Of a stretch of 64,000 bases of DNA, positions 6,893 through 33,389 are shown one piece after another. Within the stretch, counting starts at the first letter, position 1. Each line of letters opens with the position of its first letter. Made by a program: the position numbers and the translations under genes. Origin of the DNA: Phytoseiulus persimilis (Eukaryota > Arthropoda > Arachnida > Mesostigmata > Phytoseiidae); assembly GCA_037576195.1 (NCBI GenBank), contig CM075104.1:26056211-26120210 (forward strand), in the 5' to 3' direction. Under the pieces are notes generated by a model. It saw only the letters and a program-made list of their open reading frames with translations, did not search any database and was not told where the DNA came from.

Positions 6893-8422
6893 CCACTAGC
6901 TCGCACTATTACACGCTTGGCTCGTTTAAATTAATTCTCGCCCCTATTATACCAGTGACTTCTGCTGGACAACGAACGGACGACATCAACCACTCAGAAG
7001 AAAACCAAAACACGAAGTCGGAACCTCAGTCAAGAGCGGCAGCCACAGAACGAATCGCCCGCAAACGTGGAAGAAGAAAAACTTTGAACGGAACATGGGT
7101 TAAACAAAGCGCGCTTCCTTATTCTGTGAGCAAATTAGCTTCATAGGTGTGTCCTGCCTGCGAGCTGACTTCTACATAACAACCCCAATTGTATCGTCGC
7201 TGGGAAACAATTTGCCATCGTCATTATGCGCTATGATATAATATGAGGGAGTCCGAGGTGACAAACATTGGCGAGCGTCCTGGAGGAGCGCAAATTCCAG
7301 CTCAGCGATGCTATATTTGTTGTCAATTAAATGGGAGGCGACGAAGAGGATGAAAACCCGCCGCGAATGACCGCGGTGATGAATATCGTTTATTCAACAC
7401 TACCATAGCGATCGCGGTTGAGATGATGACCGAGAGAGAGCAACGAGTCCTGGCTCGGCATCGACAGCGTCTAAATTACATGACGACATCGTTCGAGAAC
7501 AAATGCAGCAAACGATCAAGAGGATATCCAGGTGTCGAACTCCAGTGCGTACGTCATCCGCTGATGAAGTCGTCGTTGCCAAAGTGCCGATGCTCATGTT
7601 GCCGACATGGGTACGTTGATCTCAAGTGTAGTGAACAATAATTAAATTCCCACCGACAACACCATCAGTGACGACAACGACGCGACGTCGCAATTATGCT
7701 GCGCGTGTTTGTGCCTCTGTGGAGAAATTCTGTCGGAGATCTGCACGCGGCAGCCCCGTGATTCACTCGCCGGAGAGATCATCTCAACTCAAGCATCAGG
7801 TGCCATGAAAAAGAACGTTTCGCTAGCACCTCGCCGTCCCTCTGCACGTTTTTGTTCAGTGAGCCGAAACCTAGCATTATTCTTATCATCCAGCAGAAGC
7901 GCCGGCTACCGGTGGGTAAGGCACCGCCGGCGGAAAGTATCATATGTTACTGAAGGCGGAGTTTCTGTTTCACTCCTCCCGCCAGCGAGCGAGCGTCGCT
8001 GGTAGCGCGTCTGGTTCATCCAATGGGAGGGCTGAAGAGCCAGCCAGAGGGGCGGAGCGTGCTTCGGTGTCGTTTCGCCGACGTTTCGGTGCTGCTCGGT
8101 TGTTCCACTGCGTAACCAGTAGTGTACCAGAGCGCGGTGATGCTGCCGTACCGCCGATCGAACGACAAGATCCACATGCCTTAGTGCCGTCGGAACCAGC
8201 ACTCGGTCTTCAGCCACGACCGCTACCGTTTACCGCTGCTGAGACGTGGACTTGAACTCCTAGACCAGTGCGTCCGGCGAAATCACGGCTTTCTATCGCG
8301 CTCCATTTGCTTCGTGTTTTGAAGTCGCCTCAAGAGGACAACGACGATAGCCGGCGGCCGACTCCGCACGACAACCTGTTGATCTCAGACTAGTGTGACT
8401 GTACTGTGAACCGTTCAGCAGA

Positions 8423-8605
8423 ATGACAATGGAAATCTGTGTCCTCATCCCTCAGGAATTGATCCTAGGAGCGTCGTCACGTGACGAATCGGTTCTGTCA
8501 GTTAGGGCGAATCAGAGGTTCGGCAGATCGAAGCGGCTGCTACCGTTCCAAGGAACTGTTCGCACCGACAAAGTGGAGATTTGTGACCCGCTCGACGATG
8601 ATGAC
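8423..8605 (+). CDS. Exon 1 of the PRDM gene: start codon and N-terminal part of the PR domain
   Basis: It encodes residues 1-61, beginning [13 protein letters not shown] and including [15 protein letters not shown]. This matches the start of PR domains, where a rF-P-G-type turn is followed by an acidic stretch (here DPLDDDD). The donor is GAC|GTGAGT, phase 0, and fits the phase-0 acceptor at 18330. The genomic ATG is preceded in frame by TGA at 8396-8398, which supports this start if transcription is continuous there. An acceptor-like TCTCAG just upstream (about 8384-8389) could mean that the 5' UTR is itself spliced. There is no ATG-less alternative that extends the domain. Confidence 0.75.
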
Positions 8606-11600
8606 GTGAGTTTATTAGCCGAATCCTTACCGTGATCTTCGAAGGGTTCGCGTTCTAGTTCACTGATAGAGATATAAGTAGCTGAGTGAATCGTTCGGGG
8701 AAACGCTTCGGTGATGAACAGCCGAAACGATTGAGGACCGAGAGCAATGTTAACCCGAACGTGGAAATACTTTCCGTCGTGCTCCTTTCCGTGGAAGGCT
8801 CCCGGGAACCCAGAGCTCGGGAATATCGGGAGCGTCATCGATCACGACGTCTCCGTCTCAGAAAATCCTAAAAGCAATGAGCCCGGCTCGGGGTCAAATT
8901 TTCCGGTAAACCTGGGCGGACCAGATCACACGGGCTGTAGTTCCTCTCTCAGGATATGATCAAGGATCACTACCCATGTCAGTGATGAAGACCTCCACCA
9001 GAACGCTCCTCATCGCGCAGCGAAGACCCGGCCATGGACCTCCTGTAGTCCATGTCGCCAACCAACGTTGTTTCCATCGGGCAACGGCTCAATCGAACGA
9101 GAGAGCGGAGTGACCTTCTGATGTCGGTATTTCGGTAGAACGGCATAATATTCGCACGCACCGAACACGAAGCAATGTCTGCCAAGGAGAGAATCCATTC
9201 GTCCCTTTCATTTGCGGCATCGAAAACAATTCAGACGCGCCCGATGGTCAGGGATTCCAGCGCTACTTAACGATGGGGTGCACGAATTGACGGCATCGTC
9301 TCACTCACAGTTAGACGGGATCCTTCCTGTGGTACTACGTTATGGATGCCACTCGGATCTCTTTTTTTCATTCGCTTGATGTCTTCATTGTCACTTCGAC
9401 TTCTAATAGCTCTGAGCACGATATGGGCGTTGGAGCATCTTTCGTTCTGCAGCGAAAACGTCGCTCTGCTGTATTGATTTCGCTCTCTGTGAACCGGCAC
9501 TCAAAGGGAGAACAATTGTCTGCCTTCGGAATTCCGGTGCCAATAAACGATGAGGGGACATTTCTCAAATCGACATGGACGGCGGAGCTCCCTCGAGCGG
9601 GCGAATTCTGGAGCTCAACAAGTGGAAAAACAGCCTCGGCCAAGATCCCCCACGAGCGCCCTCGGCTAGCTCGACGCCCTCCTCCATCGGAGCCTCAAAG
9701 AGCTGCTCGTCGCGATGGACGATAATGAGATCTGAGAGCGCGAGAGAAAATTCGCTTCAGAAGCGAGAGTGGCCGGACTTCAGCGGCTAATGCCATTTGT
9801 ATTGTCTCGGGCTGACAGCTACCGATAGCTAATAGGCCATATTCGGTTCTTAGGTGGCCTTTGTGGTTTTAGCGGAATCACGAACTTCAACTCGTTGTGT
9901 TTCGATCGCGCGTTATCGACGACCGCTTTTCGACCGATTGTCTGTCCGAAATGTAATGAGAAGGCCTCCACGCAGGAGAAGAAACAGTCCGTCTTCGACG
10001 ATTGAGTCTTTTTCAGCTCGCTGAGCTAATTGTTCTTTCTTCTCTTCTGCGGCCGCTTCAGAGCGGCGACTGTCCGTTTGTGATGCACGGTCGATTCCTA
10101 CAATCTCTGCAAGTCGCTGAGCCAGCGAGATCAATCAATTTGGGAAACGGGAACCCTACGAGGGATCGACGGAAGTCCGCACACCGCGCCGTTCCCATCC
10201 CGCGACATCTGACCCGTCTAGACACTTGAACCTAAGGTCGAGTCCGGAACGCGGCTCTGAACCCTTCGTAAGAGGTCTTCGGACGCAATTGGGAAGCAGT
10301 CTGCTTCGAACGCTAAAACTCTCACGAGTATTCCGCGAAAACCTTTTTGGCCTATTTAACCACAGAATGCGAAATTCGCGGCCGTTTATCACAGGCTCGA
10401 CCGTCGGGGTTCGAAACGCCGACAGAGGGGCCGCCCAGATTCGCTTGTTCATCGATGATCTGAACTCCGCTGCACGTTTTGGGAGCGGATTTGAGCCGGG
10501 TGACATCGGCTGGCCGGAGCCCTACCTGGCTCACGAGGCACAACGGCGGACTTCCCCGGCAGAGACACTGCGTTCCTCTTGACTCGAATCACAGCAACGT
10601 CGAGGAGTGTCTGTTCGTCTGGCTCCGTCTTGGGCGTACTGCTCCGAGACACGATGAAGATCTACTCGAATCAATGAGGAATGATGTTCAAACCTCATAA
10701 GTTACTTTCGGAAAGGAGAAATAGCTTCTTTCAACTGTCGGCGCTCGATCGGCTATATTTCACTTGGCCTCAACGTCAGAATCCGAGCACGAAATCATCA
10801 GGGTTTTTGTTCCCGAGTGGGGTTCATTAATTTCCGCAGCGACGCGTTGGGTTGGGCCCGGCGGGAGTCCGGGCCCTGTTCGCGTCTCGATTTCCTCAGT
10901 CTGATCCTCTTCGTTTTCTTCCTTCCTGAATTTGTGTGTGTCGGTAAAACGACGAGCCGCGGCGCGACGGGCCGGTTTCGGTCGACCGACGGAAGGCGTG
11001 CTCTATGTTTTTTCATTTTACGTTCGCGTGGGCGGCAGGAGGAACATTTCGAGCGAGGCCGAGAAGGTTTGCTCCGTCCATTTATCCATGCCCGTTCATT
11101 TGGGTTCGTTCAAGACTGGGATCGGTGACGGCTCTGGTTGTGGTGTATTGTCTGGCAGTTTTCGTGTAGCGATCGCGCGCGTTTCCCGTGGAACCCGAGA
11201 TGCTAGATCGGTTCGGAGGCAGCCGAGAGGGCATTAAGATTCTAACGAAGTTTGCGCCGGGGAAGCGAAATTGTTGCGGCGCTGGGCTCAACCCGTGGAG
11301 TATTCTTTTTTCGGTGGTTATCTGCTGTTGTCGGTGGTGCTGATGTCGTGTTGTTCCATCCGGTGTTTAATTACAACGAGCGTCGTCAGCCTCTCAACTC
11401 AGCCGGCGTAATACAGGAGCCGAGTAACTGGTTGCCGGCCGGCCGGGCAGCCGACTCGAGGGCTGTCTTTTGGGCTTTTCGTCTTCGTCTCCTTACTTAT
11501 TTCTCTTCGGCTTGTTCTTCTGAGACGCCGTTCTCTTGACGACGACAGGAGCGAGCATCATCCTCCGGTAGCACCACCATCGTCAGTTCGTCTGTCCGTC

Positions 11601-14600
11601 GGAATCCCGACAGTGTCGCTACTTATGGTGATTATTTTCGTGATGAGTATGACCATCATCATCTGAAAAGCAATCCGCCGGTTGGTCGTTCGGGGTCCGC
11701 TGGTTTGCTGTTAGGCTGAGTGGCCTGCGCCATGCTAACTACGGTCGACATCCTCATGTCGCTCTTTGATTTGGTCCCCCAAGAGCCGTCCTCCCAAGCG
11801 AGCCAGCGACGGTTCGCGGGCTCTGAAGGCCGCAGAGCGTTGAAGCGAAATTTGAAAAGAAGCAGACGATCAAGTGTGGCAATTATTCCTCGGAGTTTCT
11901 TTCTCGCAATTTCTCGCCATTTGTTTCTTCTGCTGCTGTTGCTACGTTTCTCTCCCCTTTCTTGCCTCACTCGACGTTGCGCGCTCACTTCTCGTCCCTC
12001 TCGCCCGTTTTTCTGTTTTAGCTGATGCTTCTGCGGCGAGTTTTTTCAGGATTAAATGGCGCTCCACATGCGCGCTTGTCTGCACCGGCCGGACGGGGAG
12101 CGTATGCATGTCGTCGAGCGAGAATCGTACAGTCCACATCAACTGATTCCACTTGTCCGCGTTTCTTCCTTCCCCTCTTCTTATTTTCTCTACCGGCGTC
12201 TATGCCTCTTTCTCTCCCGTGTGTTCCGCCGGCGCTTCGTTATGCCGTCTCTGTGTCCGTCGGTGGCTCTGTCTGTCCTTCCGTTCTTCGGTCGCTTCTC
12301 GAAAGAAGTCGCGTCGGCAATTGGTCGGCGTTCTCTCGTTCGTCCGCAGTCCCCGCGATCCGACAGCGTCCTCAACATCGGCCCTCGAGTGATGAACTGG
12401 ACGGCTCGGCAAACCAACCCTGGAGCTCTCTTCCCGCTGGGACCGGCGATTCCATATGTTCGAATTTCCGACCGACGGCTGAGCCCGCGACGCCGGAAGA
12501 CGCTCGCTGGCTCTCGAGAGAATCTCTCGCTGCCGGTAGAAACGAATATTGGATGTGGCGACACATTGAAGTCCCGTGTCGCGATTTCCAAAACCGCCGA
12601 AGTGGCACTCGATCATCGTTTGCTACCATCGCCAGAGAGGAACGCAAGGCGTCGTCCATCCTCTTTGAGGGGTCCATTCAAACTCATGAGGGAGGAATTC
12701 TGGCTCCGGACCAACTCATGAGGGAGGAATTCTGGCTCCGGACCAACTCATTCCGATTGAGCGATTATCGTCCGTAGTTTCGACTTTCGAATCAAAAGAC
12801 GCGCGAATCGTCACGGCGTCAGAGGCAATCACGCAAGTTCTTCATATGCTCGGACGGACGTACGGAGCGACAGGCTGTATCGAGTCTCGTTTGATGCAGC
12901 TGTTGCGCGCGGTTACCAGGCCGGCCGGTGATCCTTCAACTGCTGAAAAGGATGGGCGAAGCAGACGAGACGAGGAATAGAAAGAAAATCTCGGACAGGT
13001 GCTACCGCGTCGCCCGGCCCGCATACTGCAGGCCGTATGCACATTGAGCATATGAAGCGCTTTTTGAAATGAACAGATCCCGTCTTAAATGCTCAAGGGT
13101 GCCGGGGACATTTCAGAACGCCAGTAGTCGAGATGGTGGGAGCTGAAACGAGGAACGATCGTTTCGTCAGAGCCACAAGTCGCAAGGGGATGGTGGCTCC
13201 GCCGGCGTGCGAGATCCGCCCGGACTTCTCGCAGGGTTCGGGACGTGCAGAAAGACTTGCATGGCCGAGGGACTCGACGACGTGAGGGCAGACCGCTCCG
13301 ACGGAAAGTTGGCGACAACTCAACTGTTGGTCGAGCCCAGTATCGCAAGCAGACAGAGTGAATGACAATGGGAAGTTTTCCATAAAACAGACAAATTATC
13401 CACGCGATTTATGGTTTCTGTCGGGTCTGGCGCTGAGTCTTGTCAAGTACAGATTATCCGTCTGCCTGTCCGTCCGTCCGTCCGTCTGTCTGTCTCCAGG
13501 ACGGGAAGAGATCCACGACGAAAGAGGGATGGGCCTCAGGGCGAAACCCAAAGACAAACCACCGTCGCAGCCACGAGCACTACTACCACCGCCGACGCAA
13601 CGTTGCTCCGTCTACAACAACGAGCCAAGCATCTGAGCAATGGATCCCCTCCCGGGCGGCACCGTATATGCCGTTTTGGGCTTCAAATTGAATCGACAAA
13701 TCACCGAGAAAAGGCGATACATAGCAACGCTGGACCGTTTCATTGCCGGTGAAGTCTCGCCGCGATCCGGAGAACTTCGTTCCGCGAGGGCTCCGCGAGC
13801 GACTCGGGGCTCGTGCGTGTGGAGACCGTGGAAGTTGCACGCTCATCTGCTACCGGTACCGTCGCTTCTGTCGCCGATGCAATGAGAATGTTGACTCAAT
13901 GTAGATTAGATTCATCTGTTGCCCCTGTGAGAGAGGGGGAAAAACATGAGCCGTGTGCACAGGATCAAGATAACCCCCTTGTCATACGGGCTGCTATGGG
14001 TCACAAGCGAGTCGAGACGACGAACAAGTCAGCGAGCGACTCATCATCCATCATCGTATCGTGCTGTAGATGTTCTTCAGAGTCACTGGAATCCTCCGTC
14101 TTCGTTGTCGTCGTCTCTGCCGCCGTTTCTGTTGAGTGCAGGCCCTGTCGCTCGTGGACAAGGTCATTGAGTTATAGTGTTCGGCTAGTGACTCATTTTC
14201 GAGCTTCATCGAACAGCGGTCCGGGAGCGGACGGCTTCGAAGAGTGAAGGGTAAAAATCTTGAGCCCCGAATCCCTCTGCATGTGTGTCGTCTGCTCTGA
14301 ACGATCCGAAGGAGTTCCAGCCGGCCAGCCACGAAGTGCAAAGTTTTTCGCGTGCTCAGCCCGCTCCGCACACCGGAACGCTCGAATAGGCCACGGCGGC
14401 TGCAGCTAAAGCACACAGTCGCGGATCGTGTGCTTAATAAAAAGCTACTCACGCAAAACGGTAGCGTCCGTCGGTTCGCTCGCTCACTCGCTCGCTCGGC
14501 CTCAGCAGCCGCCGTGGCGCAGAGCAACGGTGAGAGCAAGTGGCACGGACACGCAATGCTTTTAATTGCCGCAACTGAAACATTCGGTCTTTCGACTCGT

Positions 14601-17600: not shown

Positions 17601-20600
17601 GTGATGACTTTCACGATTCGATCGTTTTCGAACGCAGTAGCTCGTTGTTGTTGTCGTCGTTCTTCGATTTAGCTTCGATTTTCAGTATTGTAACCATGTT
17701 TAGTGACGGAAACGAAACAACCGACTCGGGGTCGCGATCGCTCGAGGAGCCGTTTTCGGCATCAACAAGTCCACACGCCACATCGTCTGTTGTACGGCCA
17801 TAAATTACGGGACGAATCTCAGGGAAGAGCCAGTTGAAGATGCGAACCTAAATCAACATCACGGTACACCGACAGCCCTGGTTGAGTCCGCCGAGCTCGC
17901 GGCGATTTCCACCTTGGAAACGCCGCTGCGGAGCCGTCCTCTGCCCTTCACCTTCGGGCGCGTTGATTAAAATCGTCGGACAATCGCAGGGAGAGAGAGG
18001 GAAAGAGCTACTTCTAATACTTCATCGTGAAAAGAAATTTTCGTATCGATTCGCCGACCACGATTCCTCCAGGATCTTGAAGTCATCCCTCGATTCGGCA
18101 TTGTGCGCTATCGTTCCTTCTCGGGGCGTCGTGACGCGCGAATCGCGATTCTGCACAGCATGATAGGAGAACCTACACTGAAGCAGTGTTCCGTTACGTT
18201 TTTCAAACTTCGAAGTTCTTTTCCAATTGAAGCTCGCTCTCTGTGTGTTCTCCGACCTAGCTTACCAGCATTCCAGCCGAGACCCGACTGAACAACGGTT
18301 CTCAATGCCCCCCTTCCTCCTCATTTCAGATCAGAAACCGTTTGGGGTGCTACGAGGAGATCGTGACCGTGGACAACAAGAAAATCAAATACTGCAACTG
18401 GGTTCGATTCCTGCGCGTAGTTACGTCGATGACCGAGGAGGTAAACTTCATCGCAACCATCGTACGGGGCGAAACAATTTTCGAGAGCATCGTAGAAATT
18501 CCCCAAGGGGGCGAACTCGTCGCGTTCCTCGACAGACGGGAGGGAAGCCCTCCTTCGCTTTCACCGAATTTCGCCCTCCACCGAAACGTGAACCTGATGC
18601 AGTACCGGAACGGTATGGGCAGCATACTTGAAGGTGAGTCCGAACCCATTCCGAACCCCACAATTCGTGCCAGTTGCAATCAGCTGCTTCTGATCTCATT
18701 GTCAGCAGCAAAACGGTCAGCTGCAGCGACACAAGTCGGGGAACGTGTACGCGGTCGTCTCCGCACACGCCGCTTCGCGCATCGATGATCTGCTGAGCTA
18801 GCGACAAATTCTGGCTGTTTTCCCCCAAGAAAGTCGAGCTCGCTGGTCGAAATTTTTTGCTCGTTTGACTATCTGTCGGAGGTTCCTCCGTTGATCCGTC
18901 TCCCCGCTTTCTGAAGCGTCGAAAATCGTATTTGAGATGGTGCAAGTTGCCAGCCGACTGACCGATGGTCCGAACCAACGACCGCTTGGCTGGTTGGCCG
19001 AGCGAGCGAGCGAGCGACCGGCCGATTGCGGTCGGATCGCCCACTCGTCAATAAGCCAATCATCGAGCAGAAGGCAGTCCGTCAGTCAGTCACTCAATAG
19101 AGTGTTTTGGTCCTCTTTTTCTTCGTTTCGTCTGCTTGTCCGTCTGTCCGAGTCTGATTGTGTGAGTGTCTACCGCACCGCCTGTCAACGCTGCGTCGAA
19201 CTGAGTGTGGATGTCGACCGACGGTGCGAGCGAGTTTGTGTGACATGATCTAATCCGGTAGTCAACAACCAGAAGCCACAGACGTCGCTCGCTCGGGACC
19301 GCGAAGAGCATCTGCAGCTGAAAATTATACACTTTGGCGAACAACAGTAGCTGCAGCCGTCGCGGCGGCTGGAGCAGGAGATGAAGAACCGCTTCTGCAC
19401 CTCGTTCTGTTCGTTTCTGTCTTTCGCCTCCTCTCCGGCTCCTTGTTTTCTGCCGAATCCTCTTGAACACCATGTAGTTCGCTTCTGCGACCGCCCGCCC
19501 GCCCGTGCGTCTGTCGGTCCGACGATCGGTTCGTCCGTCATGAAGTCTAATTGCTCGCTATCTCACTGCGGTTGAAGACATCTGTTAATTCACGCACAGC
19601 GCTGCTCCCCTGAACAAGTAGAACCGACTCACTGGTCGGCTAGTTGGCGGACTGTCTGGCCGCCAGGCGGGCTGGATGGCGATCTGCATCACGCCAGACC
19701 GCGAAGGCATCAGGTCGGGGAAAATAGGGACTGGTTTCTGATTCGTTTGGCACCGATGCCTCGACTCGGACGGGTCGTGCGATATTTCTCGCAGCTTGCT
19801 GACCAACGCGAGCGATTCGGAGTTGGGGAGCGGTCGTGAGCTGAGGGAACCGCTCTTCTTGTGGACTCCTGAGCGAATGAAGGCATATCTCCAGAAGACT
19901 CGGTGGCGTTTCCAGCGCAACGAAGAGAGAACTCCGCCGCGACGCGGGAACGACTGTATACCCAACGGAGTTTTGTTATTTAAATTCCTTTCGGAACGCT
20001 GACGGGCTGCAGAACAAATTGTCTGCCTCCTGAGTCGATCATCTGTCTGTTGCACTGTCTCCGTGACTGACAGACGAACTGACCAACCGACCGAGCGACT
20101 GCCGTACCGACTGGCCGAATGATTAAGTCGTCAAGCAGTGAGTGACATCTCATTGAATGGAAGCATTGCTATGCTAATACTAATTACGTGTTTGTGGCCG
20201 CGTCCTGCCGCGTTCATTCATTTTGAATACGACACGTCGCTTCGTGAACAAGGCGAGCATTCTGTGTGAGCTGGCATAATCATGGCGCGAAACTTGTGTC
20301 CTGTAACCGCGCATGGAGTCGAGTGAACTTGAAATTCGGCTCGAACACGGCCGCCGATCGCATTCGGAATTTTTTCCAAACTTTATGAATTCCCTCGCGC
20401 CATCTATTCCAAACGTAAAATGGGACATATGAGCACAGATTCGTTATCGCAGTGGATGGGAGGCTTTCAGAGGCGAGCAGCTCCTTCTTGATATCGGCGA
20501 CGCAGCCGCAGAAATGCTTTGCATTCAGTCGGTTTATCTCGATTGCCGCCACGGCTCGGTTTTCGCGAACCGAGCAGAAAAGGCCGAGATCTCGTCCAGC

Positions 20601-23600
20601 TGAGCGTCGCGGTCTCGACCGAGTGAAGCTTCTCGAGCAGCCGGCTTCCGGATTCCTGAGGATGCGCAATTTCCTGAAAGGAACTCGAACGAGTAGATCG
20701 AGATCAGCGAGGCGTCCGTAGCTCAGTCCGTGCTCATTGTTGAAGCAATCGCGCTCGACGTTCCGAGGAATAATCGAATATCGACACAAATCGAAAAAAC
20801 TCATCACCGCTTCTGTATTTTTCTTTTCAATTTTCAATCCTCCGGCACCGGTGCGGCAGCACTCGGGGCGTGCTGCGAGAGAAAAGGGACGAAGAGCGAT
20901 CAGAGAAGCGGAGCAAAGACGTCTGTTAACAGAGGTTTTCATTTGGAAAGTCATTCTGGCAGCAGTGGCTTGGCCCGGTTGTCGGTTGAAAATTACAAAA
21001 CAATAGCAATCGAATGGCCGCCTCCGATGCCCGATAAGAGCGAGCTCACTGTTTCGGTGCAATACGTGATCGAGCCCACCTCCTTGAACGTTTCTTTCGG
21101 CCGGATCGTCTCTCGCGGGCTCCGTTCCGGCGTTCCCGATGCCATGGCTGGCAACGTTTCCGCAACTTCCACGACCATTACGGCCGTGAGTCATAAGGCA
21201 CATCATCGGTTTCGTTCTCCGTCGATGGCATGCGTGGTACTGGACATTAGCAGCGGAAGCTGGATGTATGAGGATCATTTCGTCCGAGGGATTCGGCCGA
21301 CTGACTCTGCGGTTTTTCTTCTCCCTCTGTTCCCCTGGCGTTGCTTCGTTGTCGTCCCCTGGCGTAAAGATTGCCATCTAAGTTGTCGTCACCGTTTTCT
21401 GGTGACACGGAAACCGGAGTATGGGTCGAATCATGGTCGCGACAATTGAATCACATCGCGGAATCGGTCGCGAGGGACATCTCACTGGCTCGAAGCTTCA
21501 CCAACAAAAATCAACGACGATTCCTTTGATAGATCGCACTCGCTCGGCTCTCCGCTGCTTCAAGGGCGAGCCGAACATTATCTCAAGAGTGCCAGCGTCA
21601 GCGGAATCTATGATTTCCGATTCCGAACTATCCGAGTGCCTAATCAGAGAGCCTTCAGTGATGTTCCATCCCCGTTGCGAACGATCCTGGTTTAGCTTTC
21701 CTGAGTGAGCGAAAATCCGCTGCTAACAGTTCGGTGACGAATCGGGGAGCTTGGAGCCGAGGAGCTGCTCGGATGACAGACGCTTGGTCGAATTACGTCG
21801 TGTCATCTCTGTACTTTCCTTCCCCTCACCAATACTTTGAATAAAACATCAACCTGAAGACGCCAAAGTAAATTTCAGCCATTGAGACAGAGCTTGTCTG
21901 TTGAAAGATTATCGAAGCTGCGGCTTTTCCCTGTTGGGGTCCTGGAGCACCTTGAGTAATCGGAGCGCTTCGGGTGACGTCCTCCGACGGCGACTGCTCC
22001 TAAATTTGCGTTCGCTCGCGGGATAACAGTCACTGTTTGACCGATCCTGCAGGCGATCGGGTAGAACGGATGTGCGAGACAGAGCAGTCAGGTTCTGAAG
22101 GATTGATGGGATCGATGGTGTGGTCGTTACCCGTCAGCGTCGCGTATCCCTCCCGTTCGGGCGAGAACGTTCGCTCCGATAGGTGGTCAGGGAGTACATA
22201 CTCGGCGAGGTCCAATCACCGTCGACTGAAAACTAAGTCACTCATCGTCTTGTTTGCAGAAAACCCTTTGGACCTATCCCAGTCGCTCGTGGCGGGATCT
22301 TCAACGAGATCTCCTTCGTCGTCACCACGACCTGAAATCATGACCCCTCCATCCGAAGGTCGCAGATCGGCCTGCTCGGATCGCAGTGACCAAACCGAAG
22401 ACCTTCCGCTCGGTCTCACGACAGCATCGCCGACGTTCGCTCCGCTGCCGACAGTGCCTCGATCTCCTTTAGGTCTCACATCGTTTCCTCCTCTCGGCGG
22501 GCTTGCAATGCCACCCACGCAGCGCTCGCTCGGACCCAAGAAGCCCCGCGAACGGACGCTGCTCCCGTGTGAGGTTTGCGGGAAAGCCTTCGACAGACCG
22601 TCGCTACTCAGACGGTAAGGCGACGCACTCGAAACTATCCCGAGTTTTTTTTGTAGCCTTGTCACAGATCGTCGTTTCTAACCCATTCCGATCTCAGACA
22701 CATGCGGACCCACACCGGTGAGAAGCCCCACGTGTGCGATGTGTGCGGAAAAGGCTTCTCTACCTCGAGTTCACTGAACACGCATCGGCGCATCCACAGC
22801 GGCGAGAAACCCCATCAGTGTAACGTGTGCGGGAAGCGATTCACGGCGTCGTCCAACCTCTACTACCACAGGATGACGCACAGTAAAGTGAGTATGATCC
22901 CCATCCCACTTGACCTGGGAATAGTCCGCTGGATCGTCCGCTAGATCGTCGGCTTCCATGCAACGCCTGTGAATCAGGAACAATTTGCTCGGGGGGTCCC
23001 CGAAATCAGCCTTTTCAACGTCGATTGTCTGAGGGCTTCATTTCCTTTTTGAGCTTCCTGGTCGGAAAAGAAATGCTGCCCATACTAGGGTCAGGCTGAT
23101 TTTGGGGAATCTATGAAGCAGACGGTAGCTGTTCTCGCCGCGGTCGTTGTCGTCGTCAGTGGAACATTTAGTGTACGGCTTCTGCTGCTACTCCTACTGC
23201 CAGCTATTGCTTCAGATAGGTAGCTGGTTGGCCACTGCACCTCCTAATGGCCTGTTCTAATCGCTGCTCGGTTCTGGTACTCATTTCGATTTTTTCTTCT
23301 TTTTGTTCGTTCGTTCGTTCCTGATTTCGGCTTGCTCACCTGTTGACGGTTGTAGATGTGGCTGCTGGTGTTGCTGCTGCTGCGGCTACTGCTGTTCAGG
23401 TTGATTTTGAGCTCAGCTGAATATAGTCGAGTAGCCGGCGACGACGATGTCTTCGGTTGCTGCTCCGCTGTCGGTGGGAGGAGCCGTATTATTGCGTGTT
23501 TGTGTCGCCTTATGGACATCCGACGACGAAAGCGACGTCGAACTAACCGAGCAAGCGACCGGTTGTCGGCGATGTCGCGCCAACCACAGATGATAGAATA

Positions 23601-26600
23601 CGGCACGGTCGCGCGTAAGATAAAGGCGACAGATTCTGTCGTCGTTGTGACTACGACCGTCGTCGCCGTAGTCATTAACAAAAGGCACATATGATCAGCC
23701 ACAGCAGCCAGCCGCATCTATGTGCATCGAATACTGGGTTTCTAAAATCGGTCAGCTGTCGGCGAATCTCAAACGCCGGTGTTCGGGGAAATCTGACACG
23801 AACTACTGTGTTTATCGACGTGGTGAACGAGCATCTCGTGTCCGTGCGACCTCAAATCGATCGCTCCTGAAAGAAAATGGAACCCCGGGAAGAGGATGCA
23901 CAGCGCGCGAGCCTTACGCTGGGAACGTTGGCTTTCTGAACTGCATTCTGCCGAAGTCATTCACAGAGCTCTCGAATCCGATTCCTGCAAGTCCCGGCTG
24001 AGGCGGCGCGACTTCTACAGAGCCCGTGTCCGCGGTGCTGAAGCGTTCTTTCGGCCGTATCGTCTTCCCCTATACTTTGATTTCGTCTCTTTATTCTCCG
24101 TGATAAGCGAGGCACTTACTCGTCTATAAAAATTTTCGAGGCTGGCGGCTCCGAGCAAAAGGAAACTCAGCGAAAATAATAAAAGTTTCGCTCGGAGCGG
24201 GTTTGAGGTCCGCCGCTAGCTTTCACTAGCCGGACCGATTCTATCCTCCTTTCGGAGACAGTCTGCGCCTTCTACTCTCGCGGCGATAAGACCGTGCGTT
24301 ACGGGACTCACTCGCAAACATCCCTGCCCCCGCCACTACCCGGCATCTCTTTGGCCACCGTCGTTCATCGATGGCTAACTATGTGGCTTGCCGACCAACC
24401 GAGCGGCGACCTGCCATCCTCCCTCCGCCTCCTCTCGTTATCAGAGTTTCTTTCTGCAGCTAAACCAGAAGCGCTAGCTCCGATATCACTACGTTTGTGC
24501 GACAAGCTTATCGCGACATAGAAGCCACTGTGTCTATATCTAGTATCTTTCGCGTCACGCGGTCTCTTGCTTTCTTTTTTCGGTTTCTTCTTTCTCGCTT
24601 GTCTCCGACGAAGGTTTGTCGGCCGCAACAAATTCCGTCTAATTGTTCCCCTCCGGTAGACCACGAACGCTTCAGTGTCTCTGACCCGTTGGGGGCTAGC
24701 TCTCGGTCGCGCTAGCCCTCGATAGAGACGATGAGAATATTCCGGCAGGGGAACCGCGCGAACGGAATTCGTCGAGTGAACTCTTGGCTCGCTCATATGT
24801 AGATTGAGCGAATCGACAACTCGCGTCAATATTCACTGTGTACTTCCTTTCCAGGAGAAACCTCACAAGTGCACCCTGTGTTCAAAATCGTTCCCTACGC
24901 CAGGCGACTTGAAGAGCCACATGTACGTCCATTCGGGATCCTGGCCCTACAAGTGTCATATCTGCAATCGTGGTTTCAGCAAACAGACAAATCTCAAGAA
25001 CCACATTTTTCTGCACACCGGTAAGTGTCTCGCTCTTCATCTCGCGCTTCGCGAGCTCTTGCATGCGCGCTCCCCCTTCTCGAACTGAGCTCACCAGTAT
25101 CTTCAAAGCAATGCTCTTGTGCTCGCTACGCTCACCGTCGATGCTGACCGAGTCAGATGTCCGCTGGGAGAAAAATGGCTCAGAATCAATATTGTAGAAG
25201 CATAATAGCTTCGCTATCGTCGGAGAAGAAAGTGGGAGTGCCTGATATTTCTATCCGTTGAGCCGAAAAGTGAAACAACGCAACTTGGCTCACTGCGTGC
25301 GTCTCCCAAGATCATCAATATTGACCACTCGGCTTTCGTTCAGAACTTCACGGGAAACCTTAGTTGGTCGTATTCAGTTTCGAACACAACTCCGATATTA
25401 CCGCGGCAACTGGACTCGGCGAGAATGCAATCAGATCGGACGCTGGCCGGCGTCGCGATTCGAGCGATAGACGCTGGAAGCGAGGTCGTGTGACGAACTC
25501 GGGTCGGTGCTCACGCACCCTGTCGCAGCATGCCCTTGAAGTTGACGCCGACGGCAAGGGTGGAGTTGGCGGAGCACTCTCGGAACGCACAAGCAGACCA
25601 ATACCCAGAACGAAGCTCGTGTCCAACAGCTCTGTATCTTCTGTGGACTGTTTCCTCTGGCTCATGTGGTTCGTCGCTTTCTTCTGCAACGGCGGAAGAA
25701 CTATCTGCGCACGAATCCCGATGAATTTTAATTCCTCTGAAGGTTAAGGAACTCGAAAAAGCACATCTCCACGCGAAGGAGCGCTGTCGACAGCCAGCGT
25801 TTCAGAAGAGCACTCTGCAAACAGTGCGCGGGATAGAAGGGAGATGAAACTCAACAATGATCCGGCGTTGCTGCGTCACCGACTTCGCGAGAACTCGCTG
25901 CGCGCATAAATCACAGGAACGGCATCACACACGTCAGATGAGAATATTAGCAAGAGCTAGTTCAACAATGCCATGGCACCCTTCAGCTGGGAGTTCCGGA
26001 ACGGATCCACGTCTGGGAGAAGAATCTGGAACTTATCTCGTACTGGATCGGCAGAATCCATTGGGATGGCGGGCTGCGGATTTAATTCAGCTTTTTCTGA
26101 AGCTTTTAACGCAGAATGAAGTCGAGCGACGGGATCGTGAGCCCGAGGCACATCGTGATCTCAACGCCATTTGATCTGGGCCAATCGTGAGCTGGCTTTT
26201 AGATAATGTTTACAAGTGTATTATATCTGTTTGATGGAATGGAAGGCATTACTCGCTCTCTCGCTGCTTCAACTGCATCGGCTAATACCGTTTCTGGTGC
26301 CGTGGCGGGGATACCGACGCGGAGACGCCGCTACTCCGCGCTTTCTGGCTATCGGTGACACCTCAAATCATCCGAATTATCTCGCAACGACGGATGGATT
26401 GATGAACAGCCAATGAACATGAGCAAATTTCATAACAGATAGACAACCACCCGATTCCGGAGGCCCAAACGAGAATGGAGAAAAATAAGAGCTAATGCAG
26501 CCCAGATAGCGAATGCTCCACCAGAGAAGACGTAACCGTCTCGGCGAACTTCGATCGTTTCGGCTTAGCTGACGCTTGAGGAAAGTCCCTCCGTTGACTG

Positions 26601-29600
26601 ACTGACTGACTACCGACCGACCGACCGATCGATGGATCGATCGACTCTTGGTCAATCGGTCCGCCAGCCCGGTCTCCGTGCGGAACGTCGGTTAGTCAGT
26701 TATCAGAAATCCTAATAAGCTGGATCCTGGTGTCACCTAGCGGGGGGTTCGGAGCCGCGTAATGGAACGCTTAGCGCTCGAATCGATTGAACCACGAGTA
26801 TTACTGAAAATGTTTCGCGGAACCGGGAGCTGCCCGTTCCAACGTCATTAAGGTTTGCGCAAACTCCGTAAAGACGCCACTGAACTACGACGGTCACATC
26901 GACCGAGCGTGACGTTTGCTCCACTCCGATTGGAACATCCCCGCTACCTGCCGAGAGAGAGCCCGGCACGGGAGGACCGCCATCGAAAGGTTCCGGAGAG
27001 TCCGATTTGGATCTGGGCTGCTGGTATTGTAGCGTGCGCTGGAGGGATCAAAAGCGGTTATCGAGGCCCCGTTGTCGTTGACTTTCTGTCAGACAGCCAG
27101 GCGGTGGTGGCGCCCATAGGTCGTCTCCCGGCTAAGTTGCTGCTGCCCTTGCTGAACCCTCCGAACGCTTGCCACGACTCCTTTGCCTCGTTCGGTCGCT
27201 CACTCACTCACCGTTAGCTTCAATTGAACTCTGGTTGCAGAAGTAAGCAAAGCCAACTGAACCATAGGGGCGGACTTGATCGTTAGCGGTCGGATCACGA
27301 CCGTCGTGCGATGACGAGTTAATATGAATCCCGAAACTGAGGACCGACGTGAGCAGATCACAGATACACGGTGACTGACACACTCGCTGCCGTCATCGAT
27401 CATGCCCGAAGAGGAAGACTTCTCGACCCGATCGGACAGGATGGTCGTCTCATTCTCAACCTCCTTTGGCACCCAGCTCACCGATGGGTTCTTTCAGCCG
27501 GTCGTTCCCTAAACTAGTCGATAGCTCGATGCTGTCGGAGCCGCGGTCCAACCACCGGGCTTGATGGCGGTGAAGGCTGTGGTGGTGAGTAGATAGCGAT
27601 CGTGTGAAGATCCTTCTCGCTCCGTCCCGCTGAGTCTTCGAGGGCGGCCACTCATTGAGAACAAAATCATCCCTGATCCAACCCTCCTATGCTTCAGAGA
27701 CAAAAAACCGACGACAAAAAAGCCAAGCGCAACAGAGAATCGGCGCATTTTTGAAACACCACCCTTCATTCCTTCTGCTGTTTTGACAGTTGACTTGCCA
27801 GCGAGCCAGCGGCGGCGGCGGCGACGACGGCGGCACGAACAGCGCGCCAGATACATAGCTGGAGCATGCGAGCGAAGCAGCGACCAACCCAACCCAGTCG
27901 GGCACCGTTTCGTCCGATAACCGGCCGCCAAGCAGCCATCGACAGTTAGCGGTTAGCCAACTTTCCTCCCGGATCACTCTCGATCTGTCCCTATCTATTC
28001 ATCTATCTACTATCTATTTATCCGCCCGTCAATTTATTATCTATCCATCGGGCTGACGAGCGGACTGGCTGGCTGGACGGCTACCGGGCTGGCTGGCTAC
28101 TTCTACAACAGCGAAGATCCTCGGCGCTATCAAATTGATTGGTTTAAGAAGATAGCGCTCGTGGAAAAAGGCAGCAGCGTGATCTATCGGCCCCCATTTA
28201 CAAGCAATTATCCGCAGGATATATTTGCGATAACAAACGAGATGAGAACGGTGCGAGCCGAAGCTTCATCCAGTTAGGAGTTACCGTTTCGTCACCGCAA
28301 CGAATCAAGACGCTCAACAACGATTCATTTGTTGGAAGTGTCCTCGCCAAGACCGGAGGCGAAGATTGGTCGCGGTGTTCCTGCGTAATCGAACCGGGTC
28401 CGAACGGCATTGGAAATCTCCGCTGTCGATAGCTCCGCGGCTTTCCCCCAGAAAACCGTGGGAAATCGCGCTGCTCCTCTGACCAGTGCTGGGAACAATG
28501 CGCCGGGAGCCTTCGGATACATTTCAGAAAGTTTTAGAGATAAACCTCCATGAGACTCAGTTCGTCATCCCGCCACCGATAGCTTCCGTCGTGGAGACCT
28601 GTCTTATGAAGACCCTGACAATGATAATACCAGGCATTGTTGACTGATGGAATGAGTTGAGGCTGAAACGAAGTGGTGCCCGGAGATTAGCCAGTCATGG
28701 CATCGGCGAAGCAGAGGTCGGAGCCGGACTATCTCTCGAGAAATCAGCCCGTATTCCGAAGAGAAATATCGACCGCACGCAGGGAGATGCGCATTGGGAT
28801 CCTCCCCAGACGGATGCGGGCGAGCTCGCTCGCACGGCCAGCGCAGTATGCATGCACACAGTGGCATGCACAACATGCAGGTCTGGTCAGCTGACTGACT
28901 GGCTGGATGACTCTCCGTCTACCACACCATCGAGCCGAGCCTGCTCCGTGCGCTGCGGAAGAGCATGTGTTCTCCGCGAAAGATAAGGAACGACAAGCCG
29001 AGAGAACGCATCTGCTCTTAACACAGAAACGGCACAAGTACGGTCATGCTTGCTCCTGTTAAATCCGCGGACTCATGAGATGAACTGAGGCCGATTTCGC
29101 AAGTGGCTGGCTTGCCGGCGCTTCTCTCGGTGGCGTTCTGCCCACTCGACGGAGTGCGGGATCGAATGTCACTAAGTATACAGCGCTGGTTTCGGTCCGT
29201 CGCGCTATGTAATCAATTGACCGCAGGTTCTCTCGGTGAGAGACTGAGCAGATGCTGCTGCTGCCGCCGCCGCTGCTGCTGCTGCTCTTCCCAGAATTGT
29301 CCCGGATGCAGAAAGCAAGTAGTCGGGCCAACGTGTATGCACGCTGTTTTGACCCCTGAAATTACAGACTTCGACTAGCTGGTAGCCGACGGGCCGATGG
29401 TCGTCACAGAGACTACCACGGGCCACATGAGAGCACAGCGATTTTGTTTACTATGAGCGACGGTTGGGGTGACGGTTCTAAGGAATCCCGGGAACATGTC
29501 AGTCGTGACGACGCAATGAATGGTACTCATCAGCTCGTTGTCGGAACGTGTCATATGGCTCCATCGGACTGTAACCCCAGGTTAACCTCAGTGCCCAATG

Positions 29601-32600
29601 AAAATCCAATCGGAGAAGCTCAACCGGAAGAGAGACACCGCGACATCTTGATGCGAAGCTTCAAATTCGATGAACCATGCGCCGTAAGCGTTCGGAGACA
29701 GGCTCAGGGATTCTTATCTAATCGCTTGTTTCTGATTCAATTTCCGTGAGGATCTAGAAGAGAGTCCTTAACCGTCTTCCATGGTTCTAGCCGATCCATC
29801 CTCGTCGCTTACGTTTGCCGAAGCAGAGCAAGCTCTGTACTCTTATCGGGCCAAGCAGCAAAAAAAAAAAAACGTTCAGGAGCGTTCGACCGCATTACGT
29901 GGCAGAAAATCATAAATAACAAAATCATAGAGATGGCTTCTCCCGCCGCCGCGACTATTCGGCCGTCGTCTTCTTCTCGTCTTGCCTGATTCGTTGAGTC
30001 GCAGAAGCCAATTATATCGGATTCTAGCAATAAATTGTTGTTGAGGCGAGACGACAGCGCACAGTAGCTTTGCTCCTCGCTCTTGATTCGGCTGTTGCCG
30101 CTGCTGCCGGTTCTGGCAACAGTAGTGCTGCTGCTCCTGCTCAGAAATGAAGTAGAAAGTCGATGATGCTGATGGAGGAGACGACGACGACGAAGTGAAG
30201 AGCGATCGCTGAAGGAAAGCGGGCGGGCAATGAGGCGGTGGTGATGCTGCAACTGCCGCCACCGCCGCTGCTGAGGATGAGGATGTAGACGGTGGCCTCT
30301 GTGGTCATCTTCGACTTGTCTCGTGCCCCATCGGTACAGAATATGAACTTTGTCAACCCACGGTCTCCCATCTGGACTCCTTTTCAAGGGAATGGAATTG
30401 ACACGCAAAGACTCACCCGAGTCCAGCACCTTTGTGCGACATCTGCCTCGACCGCCAGTGAGCGCGCCTATCTGAACACGGTTTCGTCGTCGATCGGATA
30501 ACGATGTACAGTGTGGAAAAGAGCTGATCCGATGTGGGCTTCTGTCCGTCTTCACGCTGCAGTTGACAAAGAGATGACGATCTGCTCAGGGCGAACCACC
30601 GTCGATCGCCGCGACGGCGTTCTTGGGACGAAACTGTGGGAACCGATCGTTTCGCAGGCGACCCCTCATAATCAATTGTTGTCTTGGCCATCGAGATTCG
30701 GGGAAACTGAAACAAAGCTCTGCTGTGTGAAATCTACACTCCGGCAGCGGGACGGCGGCAGGCGAAAAAGCGAACGCTACACGGCAGATAAACGAATATG
30801 CTTCTCGGTATTTCGGCTGTGCGTAATCGGGGTTCGCGCCTCAATGAGCCTCACGGTTAGGATCGACGTCCAAATCGAAGTCGACGGAGGCTTCTAGGAA
30901 AACTCAATCTCGAAGCAAGACCAGGTGGTGGCATTGCCGGCGGTAAATTTCCGCGCTATAGCCGGTAACTTACTGGGCCTCAAATAGCGAGAAAAATATC
31001 GAAAGAAACAAGAGAGCCTACGGGTAGCTCCTAAACAAACGATCAAATTCACGATAAAGCTCACGCACCATAGCCAACAACTGCCCGGCCGACGAGAGCG
31101 GCTGTGCGAAATATTCGGGGGCGGACGAATCAGAAGTGATCCAAAGGGTTGACGATTCTCTCAAAGAGCAAAAACCTACTGCCCCAGGAATCCGCTGGGG
31201 GGCTAGTTCAACCCATAGATCGCACTGGCGAGTCACGAAAGAAGACTCTGGAAAACGCGAAACCGTCCGGTCGGAATATGAAACAAGTTTGTCGAGCTGG
31301 GGACATCTATCTCCACGCATCGATGAGTATTAAGTGTTGTTGGTGGTGGTGATGATGGTGATCGTGACACTCGTCGATTTTTTTGTTCGCACGCAAAAAT
31401 CAACGCTGAGGAGACCCAAGCTTGTCTCCAAGTCCACTGCTCTTCACATTTCGGACGGGGCCAGTCAATTCGCAATCTTCGCCGCTGTTCGTTCAGTCTC
31501 TTGTGTTTTGAGTGGCGGCTGTCGAAGCCAAGACCAGGTCCATTTTTGTTGTCTGAGGTTATCCTTCTGACAGGGCGCTATTAACCTTCTGCTTCGGCTG
31601 CCACGGTAGCTGAACGAGCGACCGATCGGCCAGTCGCTTCGCTCATTCGTTCGTTCGTTCGCTCGCTCGCCCGCTCGCCTGCTCGCTGACGGCTTACATG
31701 ATACATTTTTAGACAAGCACTAAGCCTGAGAGAGAAAAGCGAACCAAGTGTCGTGGACATCGACAATTTTGGCAGCAGACGACGTCGACAACAACGTGAA
31801 CGTCGACGCCATCGGCTGAGCTAGATTTGCTTCTTCGCGACAGCGGCTAACCTTTATATTCCTCTATACTTTCCAGGGGACAAACCGCATATCTGCGAAA
31901 TTTGCAACAAGCGATTCGCTCTCGCATGCAACCTTCGCGCTCACCTCAAGACGCATGAAGGTAGGTTTCGGGCCAGTAGGATTTACCGATAAGGCGCTCC
32001 GTGGTCAGAGAGATTCCCCGAAATTCGCGCTCATATGTTCTCGGGAGAGAGTTGTCAAGCAACTCCTTGCCAATGTTCAGATCAGCGAGCGCGTCCGCCG
32101 ATCGCAAGTTATGGACTATGCGGAGTCTTTCTGAGAAGAGGCTAATGCGAGTTCCGGGGAACAAACAGAAGCGCAATCCGTCGATAGGCGGCTGTTTCTT
32201 GGAATCGGAGGAATAGTACACGCCTAAGGCGAGCTCGGGGAACGTGATTCTCATCGATGAAGCCAGTCAGGGAATGACATCGTTGTAAAGCCCCGTCTGC
32301 GGATGTCGTGCGAGCTTTGTCTCTGCTGTGACAATCATAACGTTGTTGAGACGGCATTGTCGATTATGGGTGTTATCGTTTGTTTATGACCACTGGTATT
32401 GGTCAATATGGCTCGGTTTATACTGGGTCGCCTATCGTCGCACACTTGCTCCTTCGTTCTCGGGAAGCTGTGCAGCAGACGGTAGCGCACGCACTGAGCT
32501 GTTCAGGTTCACAGACGAAACAAATTTTCACTTAGGGCTTCTAAGGTTTCTTTGGCGCTCAGCCGCTCATCATCATGCCGGCCCTCCCTTGCTCTACAAA

Positions 32601-33389
32601 TATTTAAACCACAAAGGGCGGCAACCATGAAGCACATTACAAGAAGAGTGAACCGATGAAGAAAGAGGAGAAATCAATCTTCACGATTAAGGAAGGGCTA
32701 TCCTTTATTGAACGATGCCTCGATAGGGGCCGATTGGCCGCCTGGTTGGCTGCTCCTCTCAGTGACCAACTTGGTTGGCTCGCTGCTCTTAGTTGGTTAT
32801 TTTTCCCGCACTTAATTACTGAGTGGACGCCTCTCCGACTGCCTCGGGCCGAATCGAGGACAATTTCCGATGTTGCCGCCGGTAGATCTCGCGTCCGATA
32901 CTCGCTGAAGAGCGATGCGCCAGCCGCAGAAGACCACAGACCCTGTCGCGGTGGTTTGCCACTTTTAAGCGGAGTAATTAATGATCGCGTACCGGTTTGG
33001 CTCTGAAAACTTCGCGACCAGCGCCTCCCTTCTGACCACAGAGTCATATTTTAATCTCCATCATCTCCTCTATTTCAGAACAAACACAGCTCGACAAGAC
33101 TCAGTGCCCGCAGTGTGACAAGTTCCCATGCGAGTGCAAAGCCCTCGAGAAGGACAAGGACATGGAGGAGCACTCCAGTGATGGCGCTTCTGACTCGGGC
33201 TCCGACATCAACAACAAGGCTCCAGGTTCAACTTCGGACAAACCGCCGCATTTCAACCTGTTCGGCTCCATGCTGGACCAGATGATGTTGGCTAGTTATC
33301 AGCAGCAGATGAGCGCCTTCATGCCTCCGGCTTTGCGGGCTCTTAAAATGTTCCAAGAGGGCGGTTTCGCCCTACCTACGCCTCCGTGA
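8423..33389 (+). CDS. PRDM-family zinc-finger transcription factor (seven exons, 530 aa predicted)
   Basis: Joined exons are 8423-8605, 18330-18633, 22260-22614, 22698-22887, 24855-25020, 31877-31960 and 33079-33389. All introns are GT-AG. Phases match at every junction (0, 1, 2, 0, 1, 1) and the total is 1,593 nt ending in TGA. The protein has a PR/SET domain (about residues 8-145, with CNWVRFLR at 83-90), a PLDLS motif at 165-169, six C2H2 fingers at about 266-286, 294-314, 322-342, 350-370, 378-398 and 406-426, and a tail with CPQC (437-440) and CEC (445-447). PRDM proteins are nuclear DNA-binding regulators. Many lack strong methyltransferase activity and recruit co-repressors, and PxDLS motifs bind CtBP. 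A repressor role is inferred. The finger number equals that of vertebrate PRDM14, but the PR domain reads differently, so I give no symbol. The ATG at 8423 has an in-frame TGA 27 nt upstream. A further exon inside intron 1 cannot be excluded. Confidence 0.88.
12681..12744 (+). repeat. Exact 32-bp tandem duplication
   Basis: Two identical 32-bp units (12681-12712 and 12713-12744) starting AACTCATGAGG, followed by a partial third start (AACTCATT). No mismatches, so the duplication is recent. It sits in intron 1. Confidence 0.95.
13461..13496. repeat. (GTCC)n/(GTCT)n microsatellite
   Basis: CTGT and CCGT tetranucleotide units in tandem within intron 1. Confidence 0.9.
14474..14499. repeat. (CGCT)n microsatellite with a variant unit
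   Basis: CGCT units interrupted by CACT, in intron 1. Confidence 0.8.
15425..15453. repeat. (GCGA)n then (ACGA)n compound microsatellite
   Basis: GCGA units change to AACG units, in intron 1. Confidence 0.85.
18330..18633 (+). CDS. Exon 2 of the PRDM gene: core of the PR/SET domain
   Basis: It encodes residues 62-162 plus one base of codon 163. The acceptor CATTTCAG|ATC is phase 0 and the donor AAG|GTGAGT is phase 1. The sequence reads [12 protein letters not shown], then CNWVRFLR, a hydrophobic strand ([17 protein letters not shown]), and a GGELVAFL strand that corresponds to the E-L-x-V-x-Y end of PR domains. The NHxC catalytic motif of classical SET methyltransferases is absent, as is usual for PR domains. 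The end ([14 protein letters not shown]) leads straight into the PLDLS motif of the next exon. The + strand also has two other long open frames here, and both are shadows. Confidence 0.88.
18634..22259 (+). other. Intron 2 of the PRDM gene (3.6 kb)
   Basis: GTGAGT to TTGCAG, phase 1. Contains GAGC-type simple repeats near 19.0 kb. The long minus frame 20280-21377 (365 codons) has no recognisable domain. The last 220 nt before exon 3 are open in the exon 3 frame. Confidence 0.7.
18999..19020. repeat. (GAGC)n microsatellite
   Basis: Five tandem AGCG-type units near the start of intron 2. Confidence 0.9.
22260..22614 (+). CDS. Exon 3 of the PRDM gene: PLDLS motif, Ser/Pro-rich linker, first half of zinc finger 1
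   Basis: The acceptor TTTGCAG|AA completes a Glu codon with the last base of exon 2. The peptide starts [15 protein letters not shown] is a match to the CtBP-binding PxDLS motif that is also present in PRDM3/PRDM16 and other repressors. A linker of about 95 residues rich in Ser, Pro and Thr follows (for example [14 protein letters not shown]), then [20 protein letters not shown]. The finger's two cysteines are here, and its histidines come from exon 4. The donor is GACG|GTAAGG, phase 2. The frame stays open upstream to 22037, with in-frame ATGs at 22070, 22106 and 22115. Confidence 0.92.
22698..22887 (+). CDS. Exon 4 of the PRDM gene: end of finger 1, fingers 2 and 3
   Basis: The acceptor ATCTCAG|ACACATG restores Arg-His-Met-Arg-Thr-His. 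Canonical linkers (TGEKPH, SGEKPH) join the fingers. Finger 2 is [21 protein letters not shown] in two pieces of helix and hairpin, and finger 3 has CNVC with HRMTH. The helix positions that contact DNA are variable and intact, and all zinc ligands are present. The donor is AAA|GTGAGT, phase 0. The intron separating exons 3 and 4 is only 83 bp (22615-22697), in contrast to its kilobase-scale neighbours. Confidence 0.95.
22888..24854 (+). other. Intron 4 of the PRDM gene (2.0 kb)
   Basis: GTGAGT to TTCCAG, phase 0. Includes a TTCG repeat near 23.3 kb and GCTGCTG-rich sequence near 23.37 kb. No gene seen. Confidence 0.75.
23304..23320. repeat. (TTCG)n microsatellite
   Basis: Four GTTC units in intron 4. 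Confidence 0.85.
24855..25020 (+). CDS. Exon 5 of the PRDM gene: zinc fingers 4 and 5
   Basis: The acceptor TTTCCAG|GAGAAACCTCAC begins exactly with the linker EKPHK, phase 0. Finger 4 runs from CTLC to HMYVH and finger 5 from CHIC to HIFLH. The linker between them (SGSWPYK) departs from TGEKP, which in C2H2 proteins often marks a change in how the fingers track the DNA groove; that reading is an inference. The donor CACCG|GTAAGT is phase 1. Both fingers keep all ligands. Confidence 0.95.
26593..26644. repeat. (GACT)n/(GACC)n/(GATC)n compound microsatellite
   Basis: Three successive tetranucleotide motifs, each one base different from the last (GACT, GACC, GATC/GATG). This suggests growth from one array by point change and re-expansion. 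Intron 5. Confidence 0.9.
27809..27835. repeat. (GGC)n/(GAC)n trinucleotide tract
   Basis: GGC units followed by GAC units in intron 5. Confidence 0.8.
27992..28101. repeat. (CTAT)n and (GGCT)n compound microsatellite
   Basis: Degenerate CTAT/CTATTT units followed by GGCTGGCT units, in intron 5. Confidence 0.85.
29251..29287. repeat. (CTG)n/(CCG)n trinucleotide tract
   Basis: GCTGCTG, then CCGCCGC, then CTGCTGCTG, in intron 5. Confidence 0.9.
31641..31688. repeat. (TTCG)n/(CTCG)n compound microsatellite
   Basis: TTCG units passing into CTCG, CCCG and CCTG variants, shortly before exon 6. Confidence 0.9.
31877..31960 (+). CDS. Exon 6 of the PRDM gene: zinc finger 6
   Basis: This is an 84-nt exon. 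The acceptor TTTCCAG|GG completes Gly of HTGDKPH, and the finger reads from CEIC through the [10 protein letters not shown] helix to HLKTH. The donor GAAG|GTAGGT is phase 1. The phases at both ends are the same, so skipping this exon would keep the reading frame and remove exactly one finger. Confidence 0.93.
31961..33078 (+). other. Intron 6 of the PRDM gene (1.1 kb)
   Basis: GTAGGT to TTTCAG, phase 1. Nothing else recognised inside it. Confidence 0.75.
33079..33389 (+). CDS. Exon 7 of the PRDM gene: C-terminal tail and stop
   Basis: The acceptor CTATTTCAG|AA completes a Glu codon. The tail of about 103 residues starts with a compact cysteine cluster (CPQC-x4-CEC), followed by an acidic Ser/Asp/Glu segment, then a hydrophobic Met/Gln/Leu-rich stretch ([13 protein letters not shown]) and a proline-containing end (FALPTPP). 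The stop is TGA at 33387-33389. I recognise no catalogued domain. The cysteine cluster could bind a metal, and the Met/Gln-rich part resembles an interaction surface; both ideas are inference. Confidence 0.88.

Follow-up and report, generated by a model that had tools for sequence, protein, structure and literature searches.

The window analysed here is a stretch of 64,000 nucleotides from the mite Phytoseiulus persimilis (C4:26056211-26120210 of an assembly of 181 Mb and 127 contigs), and a predicted gene of the PRDM class was found at its positions 8423-33389. PRDM proteins set animal cell fates. The original prediction, made from the letters of the window, had proposed a seven-exon gene with phases agreeing at six junctions and a 530-residue PR-PLDLS-6xC2H2 product, and this structure was confirmed by the rebuilt exons, six GT..AG introns and Pfam. 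When the seven + strand exons were spliced in frame, they yielded a 1593-nt frame closed by a TGA stop, and the encoded protein of 530 residues presented a PR domain, then a PLDLS motif and then six C2H2 fingers (Table 1). Introns 1 to 6 measured 9724, 3626, 83, 1967, 6856 and 1118 bases, with GTGAGT (three introns), GTAAGG, GTAAGT and GTAGGT as donors and acceptors composed of 71-94% pyrimidine. The reading frame is closed 24 nt 5′ of the ATG at 8423 by an in-frame TGA (8396-8398), and given the AG placed directly 5′ of this ATG, exon 1 may be an internal exon. As far as can be read from the DNA, the predicted gene is complete and, its subfamily aside, of a known kind.

Table 1. Coordinates, within the window, of the predicted exons and of the PLDLS motif.
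Feature	Position	Strand	Content
Exon 1	8423..8605	+	Start codon, second in-frame ATG at 8429, N-terminal PR half, residues 1-61, phase 0 end
Exon 2	18330..18633	+	C-terminal PR half (CNWVRFLR ... GGELVAFLD)
Exon 3	22260..22614	+	PLDLS motif, Ser/Pro-rich linker, beginning of finger 1
PLDLS, canonical CtBP-binding motif	22265..22279	+	Residues 165-169
Exon 4	22698..22887	+	Remainder of finger 1, fingers 2 and 3
Exon 5	24855..25020	+	Fingers 4 and 5
Exon 6	31877..31960	+	Finger 6
Exon 7	33079..33389	+	Cys-containing segment, acidic stretch, C-terminal tail, TGA stop

The joins between exons 3 and 4, 4 and 5, and 5 and 6 were well supported, because finger 1 became whole only through the first of these splices and the linkers that follow fingers 3 and 5 only through the second and the third. 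The best codon-usage frame was the model frame in all seven exons; however, this support was weak, since the scoring penalised stops in the competing frames, finger genes made up most of the training set and the absolute score was negative in three of the seven.

The PR domain spans residues 8-129 and is encoded by two exons separated by the longest intron. The Pfam model PF21549 scored 27.2 bits on the joined exons 1-2, against a cut-off of 27, and 24.6 bits, below that cut-off, on the frame of exon 2 alone in the genome search. Because this score was marginal, PR profiles were built separately with the window gene excluded, two of them broad and one composed of MECOM and PRDM16 only, and were searched against 4085 open frames, each at least 20 aa long, from the window and from 60 kb lying upstream of this genome's hamlet-like gene. 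Exon 2 ranked first among the 4085 frames under all three profiles (E 7.2e-6, 1.1e-4 and 0.0045), and for exon 1 the rank was second under both broad profiles (E 0.092 and 0.021) but only fifth (E 5) under the MECOM and PRDM16 profile. Moreover, the two broad profiles gave the joined exons 33.9 and 35.2 bits. When exon 1 was shuffled 500 times ahead of exon 2, the highest scores were 22.2 and 25.0 bits, respectively, and no shuffle attained the real score under either profile. From these frame ranks and shuffles it is very likely that exon 1 supplies one half of a single PR domain and exon 2 the other, and the assignment to the PRDM class made at the outset was borne out by PF21549, the separate profiles, the shuffles and the six fingers.

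Alignment revealed that this PR domain retains the NW and EL anchors, that the FGP..G core is replaced by LLPFQG and that the aromatic ending ELLVWY is replaced by ELVAFL. The catalytic Tyr belongs to the VWYG ending of the PRDM9-type PR domain, and the window PR domain ends in VAFLD instead. Judged by its residues, the domain is too degenerate for catalysis to be assumed, and a non-catalytic reading is favoured because both the ELLVWY ending and the FGP..G core have been lost. The SET model PF00856 produced 31 matches in the genome to E 0.1, none of them in the window gene, and when the protein was scanned against Pfam to E 1, this model was not among the matches. Therefore, surveys based on PF00856 would overlook this gene, which is a concrete reason why such genes may be under-counted, yet it is no evidence for novelty. 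For example, PF00856 at 1e-5 was the model in a SET survey covering 147 genomes of arthropods, with 10 chelicerates among them, and PRDM was counted there as one SET group (PMC5459927).

Six tandem C2H2 fingers with short linkers were identified by Pfam at residues 266-426, their contact residues (–1, 2, 3, 6) being RSLR, TSST, ASNY, TGDS, KTNN and LCNA, and it is proposed that they would bind a defined DNA site. In the comparison with solved structures, the 18 sequences matched to E 1e-25 were general finger proteins, with ZNF568 first and PRDM9 arrays among them. The PLDLS motif was the sole P[LVIPME]DL match of the protein, and it appeared in 0.1% of 20000 shuffles of the 133-residue linker region. 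The PLDLS of EVI1/MECOM sits in a repression region. EVI1/MECOM represses by binding CTBP1/2 through a single PLDLS motif (PMC11095456). A separate CtBP gene was located at C1:44135723-44137236, with 71-77% identity in three pieces to human CTBP1. In the proposed mechanism, PLDLS would recruit CtBP together with its histone-modifying complex, resulting in repression, and the PR domain would act in protein contact and not in methyl transfer.

The reading favoured here, with a probability of roughly 0.7, is that of an apparently single-copy, seven-exon PRDM-class arthropod gene coding for a putative DNA-binding regulator with a PR domain, PLDLS and six fingers, most likely a CtBP-recruiting repressor with a probably non-catalytic PR domain. 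Several observations weigh against it. PF21549 scored 23.8 bits on the whole protein, below the cut-off of 27. Among PDB chains, the best match of the PR domain was PRDM5 with an E-value of only 0.0037, out of six matches to E 10, and PRDM4 (0.22) and PRDM9 (1.5) stood amid chance matches such as a PsaE chain (0.58) and a colicin immunity protein (0.96). The looser PxDL pattern was present in 1.4% of the linker shuffles, so that PLDLS alone is only suggestive. Mouse Mecom, also devoid of the VWY ending, is tabulated with H3K9me1 activity (PMC4009873), and the loss of this ending is therefore no proof of inactivity; among 14 human rows of the same table, 10 list no methyltransferase activity. 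Finally, homology does not support the join between exons 2 and 3, which was made from its splice signals and phase and from what the architecture of the family leads one to expect.

This last point bears on the alternative that two genes are present, one PR-only (exons 1-2) and the other a PR-less six-finger gene (exons 3-7) starting in the open frame 22004-22618, given that the frame of exon 3 stays open 5′ to 22004 and contains in-frame ATGs. PR-minus forms are produced from second promoters in PRDM1 and PRDM2 (PMC4009873), and the MECOM locus yields EVI1 as a form devoid of SET (PMC11095456), precedents that make a PR-minus isoform likely even if the gene is single. However, both parts lie on the same strand, 3.6 kb apart and matched in phase, with a good donor and a good acceptor, and fingerless PR proteins are rare, PRDM11 being alone among 17 human genes (PMC4009873). 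The two-gene arrangement is thus regarded as very improbable.

As a single gene, its relationship to the known PRDM subfamilies was addressed with a PR tree of 15 rows, four of them partial, built without PRDM6, 7, 8, 11, 13, 15, 17 and all other arthropods, and its sampling and partial rows make it unable to settle orthology. The window PR domain stood on an end branch of 3.5 within an open group formed by PRDM2, PRDM5, MECOM and PRDM16 (82/87), beside MECOM and PRDM16 at 73/34, with no starred support. Approximately unbiased (AU) tests were applied to 12 groupings picked after the tree had been viewed, with p values uncorrected for multiple tests: the tree itself already contained one grouping, two could be rejected at p<0.05, and the other nine passed the test (p 0.071 to 0.28). 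The PR tree proposed as a check in the original prediction gave a tentative neighbourhood near PRDM2, PRDM5, MECOM and PRDM16 and no firm position, since the placement was unstarred and 9 of the 12 groupings withstood rejection. A PRDM9-like methyltransferase gene, also considered as a candidate, was disfavoured (AU p 0.018 with PRDM9 and 0.019 with the PRDM9-like gene of this genome).

PRDM14, like the window gene, combines a PR domain with six C2H2 fingers (PMC4463580 for the PRDM14 count), and it could be supposed that the latter is a diverged PRDM14 orthologue in which the six fingers were kept along with a role of neural or pluripotency type. Fingers 2-3 were in fact nearest to PRDM14 among ten arrays, with 37/59 identical residues versus at most 32/59 in the nine others, and the grouping of the window gene with PRDM14 fell just short of AU rejection (p 0.071), although it cost 4.4 log units. 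Across the whole array, however, identity to PRDM14 was 46% (61/134), no better than that to FEZF (47%) or to an unrelated finger gene of the genome (47%), whereas the clear PRDM orthologues of this genome retain 77-87% finger identity. The PR domain of human PRDM14 is central, at 253-371 of 571 residues (PMC4009873), in contrast with 8-129 in the window protein, for which an extra upstream coding exon is possible, and the PRDM14 chain 5ecj was not among the six PDB matches of the window PR domain to E 10. Furthermore, Prdm14 represses via Mtgr1 bound on its pre-SET/SET domains (PMC4749557), whereas the PLDLS of the window protein points to CtBP. Neither the PR domain nor the fingers overall display orthologue-level similarity. 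The difference from PRDM14 despite the equal finger count, claimed in the original prediction, was therefore upheld by PR position, by the unmatched 5ecj and by the finger identity; at the level of these comparisons PRDM14 orthology is unsupported, and such an origin appears distinctly unlikely.

A derivation from the hamlet/PRDM3-16, PRDM2 or PRDM5 side, either as an old paralogue or as the captor of a hamlet-type PR domain, is a tentative alternative of somewhat greater weight, still well short of an even chance. Besides sharing the PR domain and C2H2 fingers with MECOM, PRDM16 and hamlet, the window gene shares the absence of a VWY ending with MECOM and PRDM16, which are also its nearest, unsupported, neighbours in the best tree, and the exact PLDLS with MECOM (PMC11095456). 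PRDM5, the best PDB match, likewise carries its PR domain at the extreme N-terminus (8-128, PMC4009873), but the match is weak and human PRDM5 has many more fingers. The human protein carries 16. Against this origin, the tree placement is unstarred on a very long branch, a MECOM PR query run on the whole genome to E 10 did not find the window gene, and the window fingers are only 34-48% identical to the MECOM clusters. In addition, the fingers of EVI1/MECOM form one block of seven and one of three, with a repression region between them (PMC4009873), and the window gene has a PR domain, PLDLS and one six-finger block, so that the two separated conserved finger clusters characteristic of PRDM3/16 were not found in it.

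Moreover, the hamlet/MECOM orthologue of this genome is a separate gene at C1:17035728-17037797, with both finger clusters (pieces of 77, 84 and 87% identity to human MECOM) and its own PLDL-type motif, and the identification of the window gene as hamlet was rejected on the location of these clusters. No PR exon of this hamlet-like gene was found by the Pfam PR model, by the MECOM PR query or by the profile scan of the 60 kb upstream, a result that accords with a captured PR domain; the exon would be either lost, more than 60 kb away, split or too diverged. A more elaborate scenario, considered unlikely, would posit a PRDM lineage restricted to chelicerates or arthropods. Its PR domain, closest to the hamlet/PRDM5/PRDM2 side, would be non-catalytic and evolving fast, and would have been retained for protein contact on a six-finger protein that recruits CtBP, hamlet having apparently lost its own PR domain. 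The arthropod-specific PRDM branch put forward in the original prediction would be of this kind, and it gained no support from the PR tree.

The favoured reading, of an apparently single-copy PRDM-class gene, was also examined against the remaining genome. Of the seven matches that the PF21549 search gave to E 1, one was the window gene and another, on C89, was weak. The Blimp-1 gene at C2:216337-218457, which shares the family architecture, is a clear PRDM1 orthologue, with its PR domain matching the PRDM1 chain 3dal at E 1.5e-51, PR and fingers within about 2.1 kb, and five fingers, different from those of the window gene, that are 78% (104/133) identical to human PRDM1. A many-fingered gene at C3:25856708 had PRDM9 as its nearest solved chain, a gene at C3:36610112 with two PF21549 pieces was nearest to PRDM10 among solved chains, and a gene at C4:12889869, which we take to be PRDM13/8-like, had PRDM9 as best solved match (E 8.6e-8). 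By sequence, the window gene is distinct from the Blimp-1, hamlet/MECOM, PRDM9-, PRDM10- and PRDM13/8-like genes, all of which lie elsewhere in the genome. A genome search for a second copy of exon 2 to E 10 gave one other match, at E 0.19, inside the PRDM10-like gene. In the finger search, in which 150 of 543 candidates were scored and 219 matches obtained, the gene's own exons 4 and 5 were recovered at 97 and 81%, long matches elsewhere reached about 38-50%, and nothing besides its own exons exceeded 58% among the matches listed. A recent duplication was rejected, as neither the exon 2 search nor the finger search revealed a second copy. In the prokaryote and viral contig collections, 28 and 5 pattern matches were obtained and no relative was confirmed.

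Three PRDM genes were assigned to arthropods by Fumasoni et al., with two Drosophila as the only arthropod species (PMC2082429), and a Daphnia survey described two PRDM1 genes, hamlet and PRDM13 (PMC2889900). PRDM14 is reportedly absent from cricket, a statement repeated in a mollusc study (PMC10451705). Among the literature matches listed, no title or abstract start dealt with PRDM genes in mites or any other chelicerate, and the SET survey mentioned above came nearest (PMC5459927). With its intact finger array and strongly diverged PR domain, a sixth gene of the PRDM class in this small arthropod genome would help to show which lineages of the family were retained in arthropods beyond those reported in the fly and Daphnia surveys, and that PR domains can outlast the loss of family-wide core motifs; in other respects, this is routine annotation of a likely developmental regulator.

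Regarding the surroundings of the gene, tRNA and Rfam scans of the window gave no match. A codon-usage scan for extra exons or neighbouring genes returned no segment of at least 14 bits, and it also missed the known exons, being thus uninformative on absence. From 33390 to 64000 no further gene was recognised, by a weak coding scan and with the frames of that part not scanned against Pfam, and the gene may be surrounded by an extensive regulatory region. Two tandem repeats were observed in the window, one at 12681-12751 inside intron 1 (32-base unit, 2.2 copies, 100%) and the other at 39748-39873 (33-base unit, 3.8 copies). Elsewhere in the genome, 112 matches to Chitin_bind_4, the arthropod cuticle domain, supported an arthropod source, and a cluster of very long C2H2 arrays was observed at C3:21186000-21207000, with open frames of 1239, 2021 and 2482 residues.

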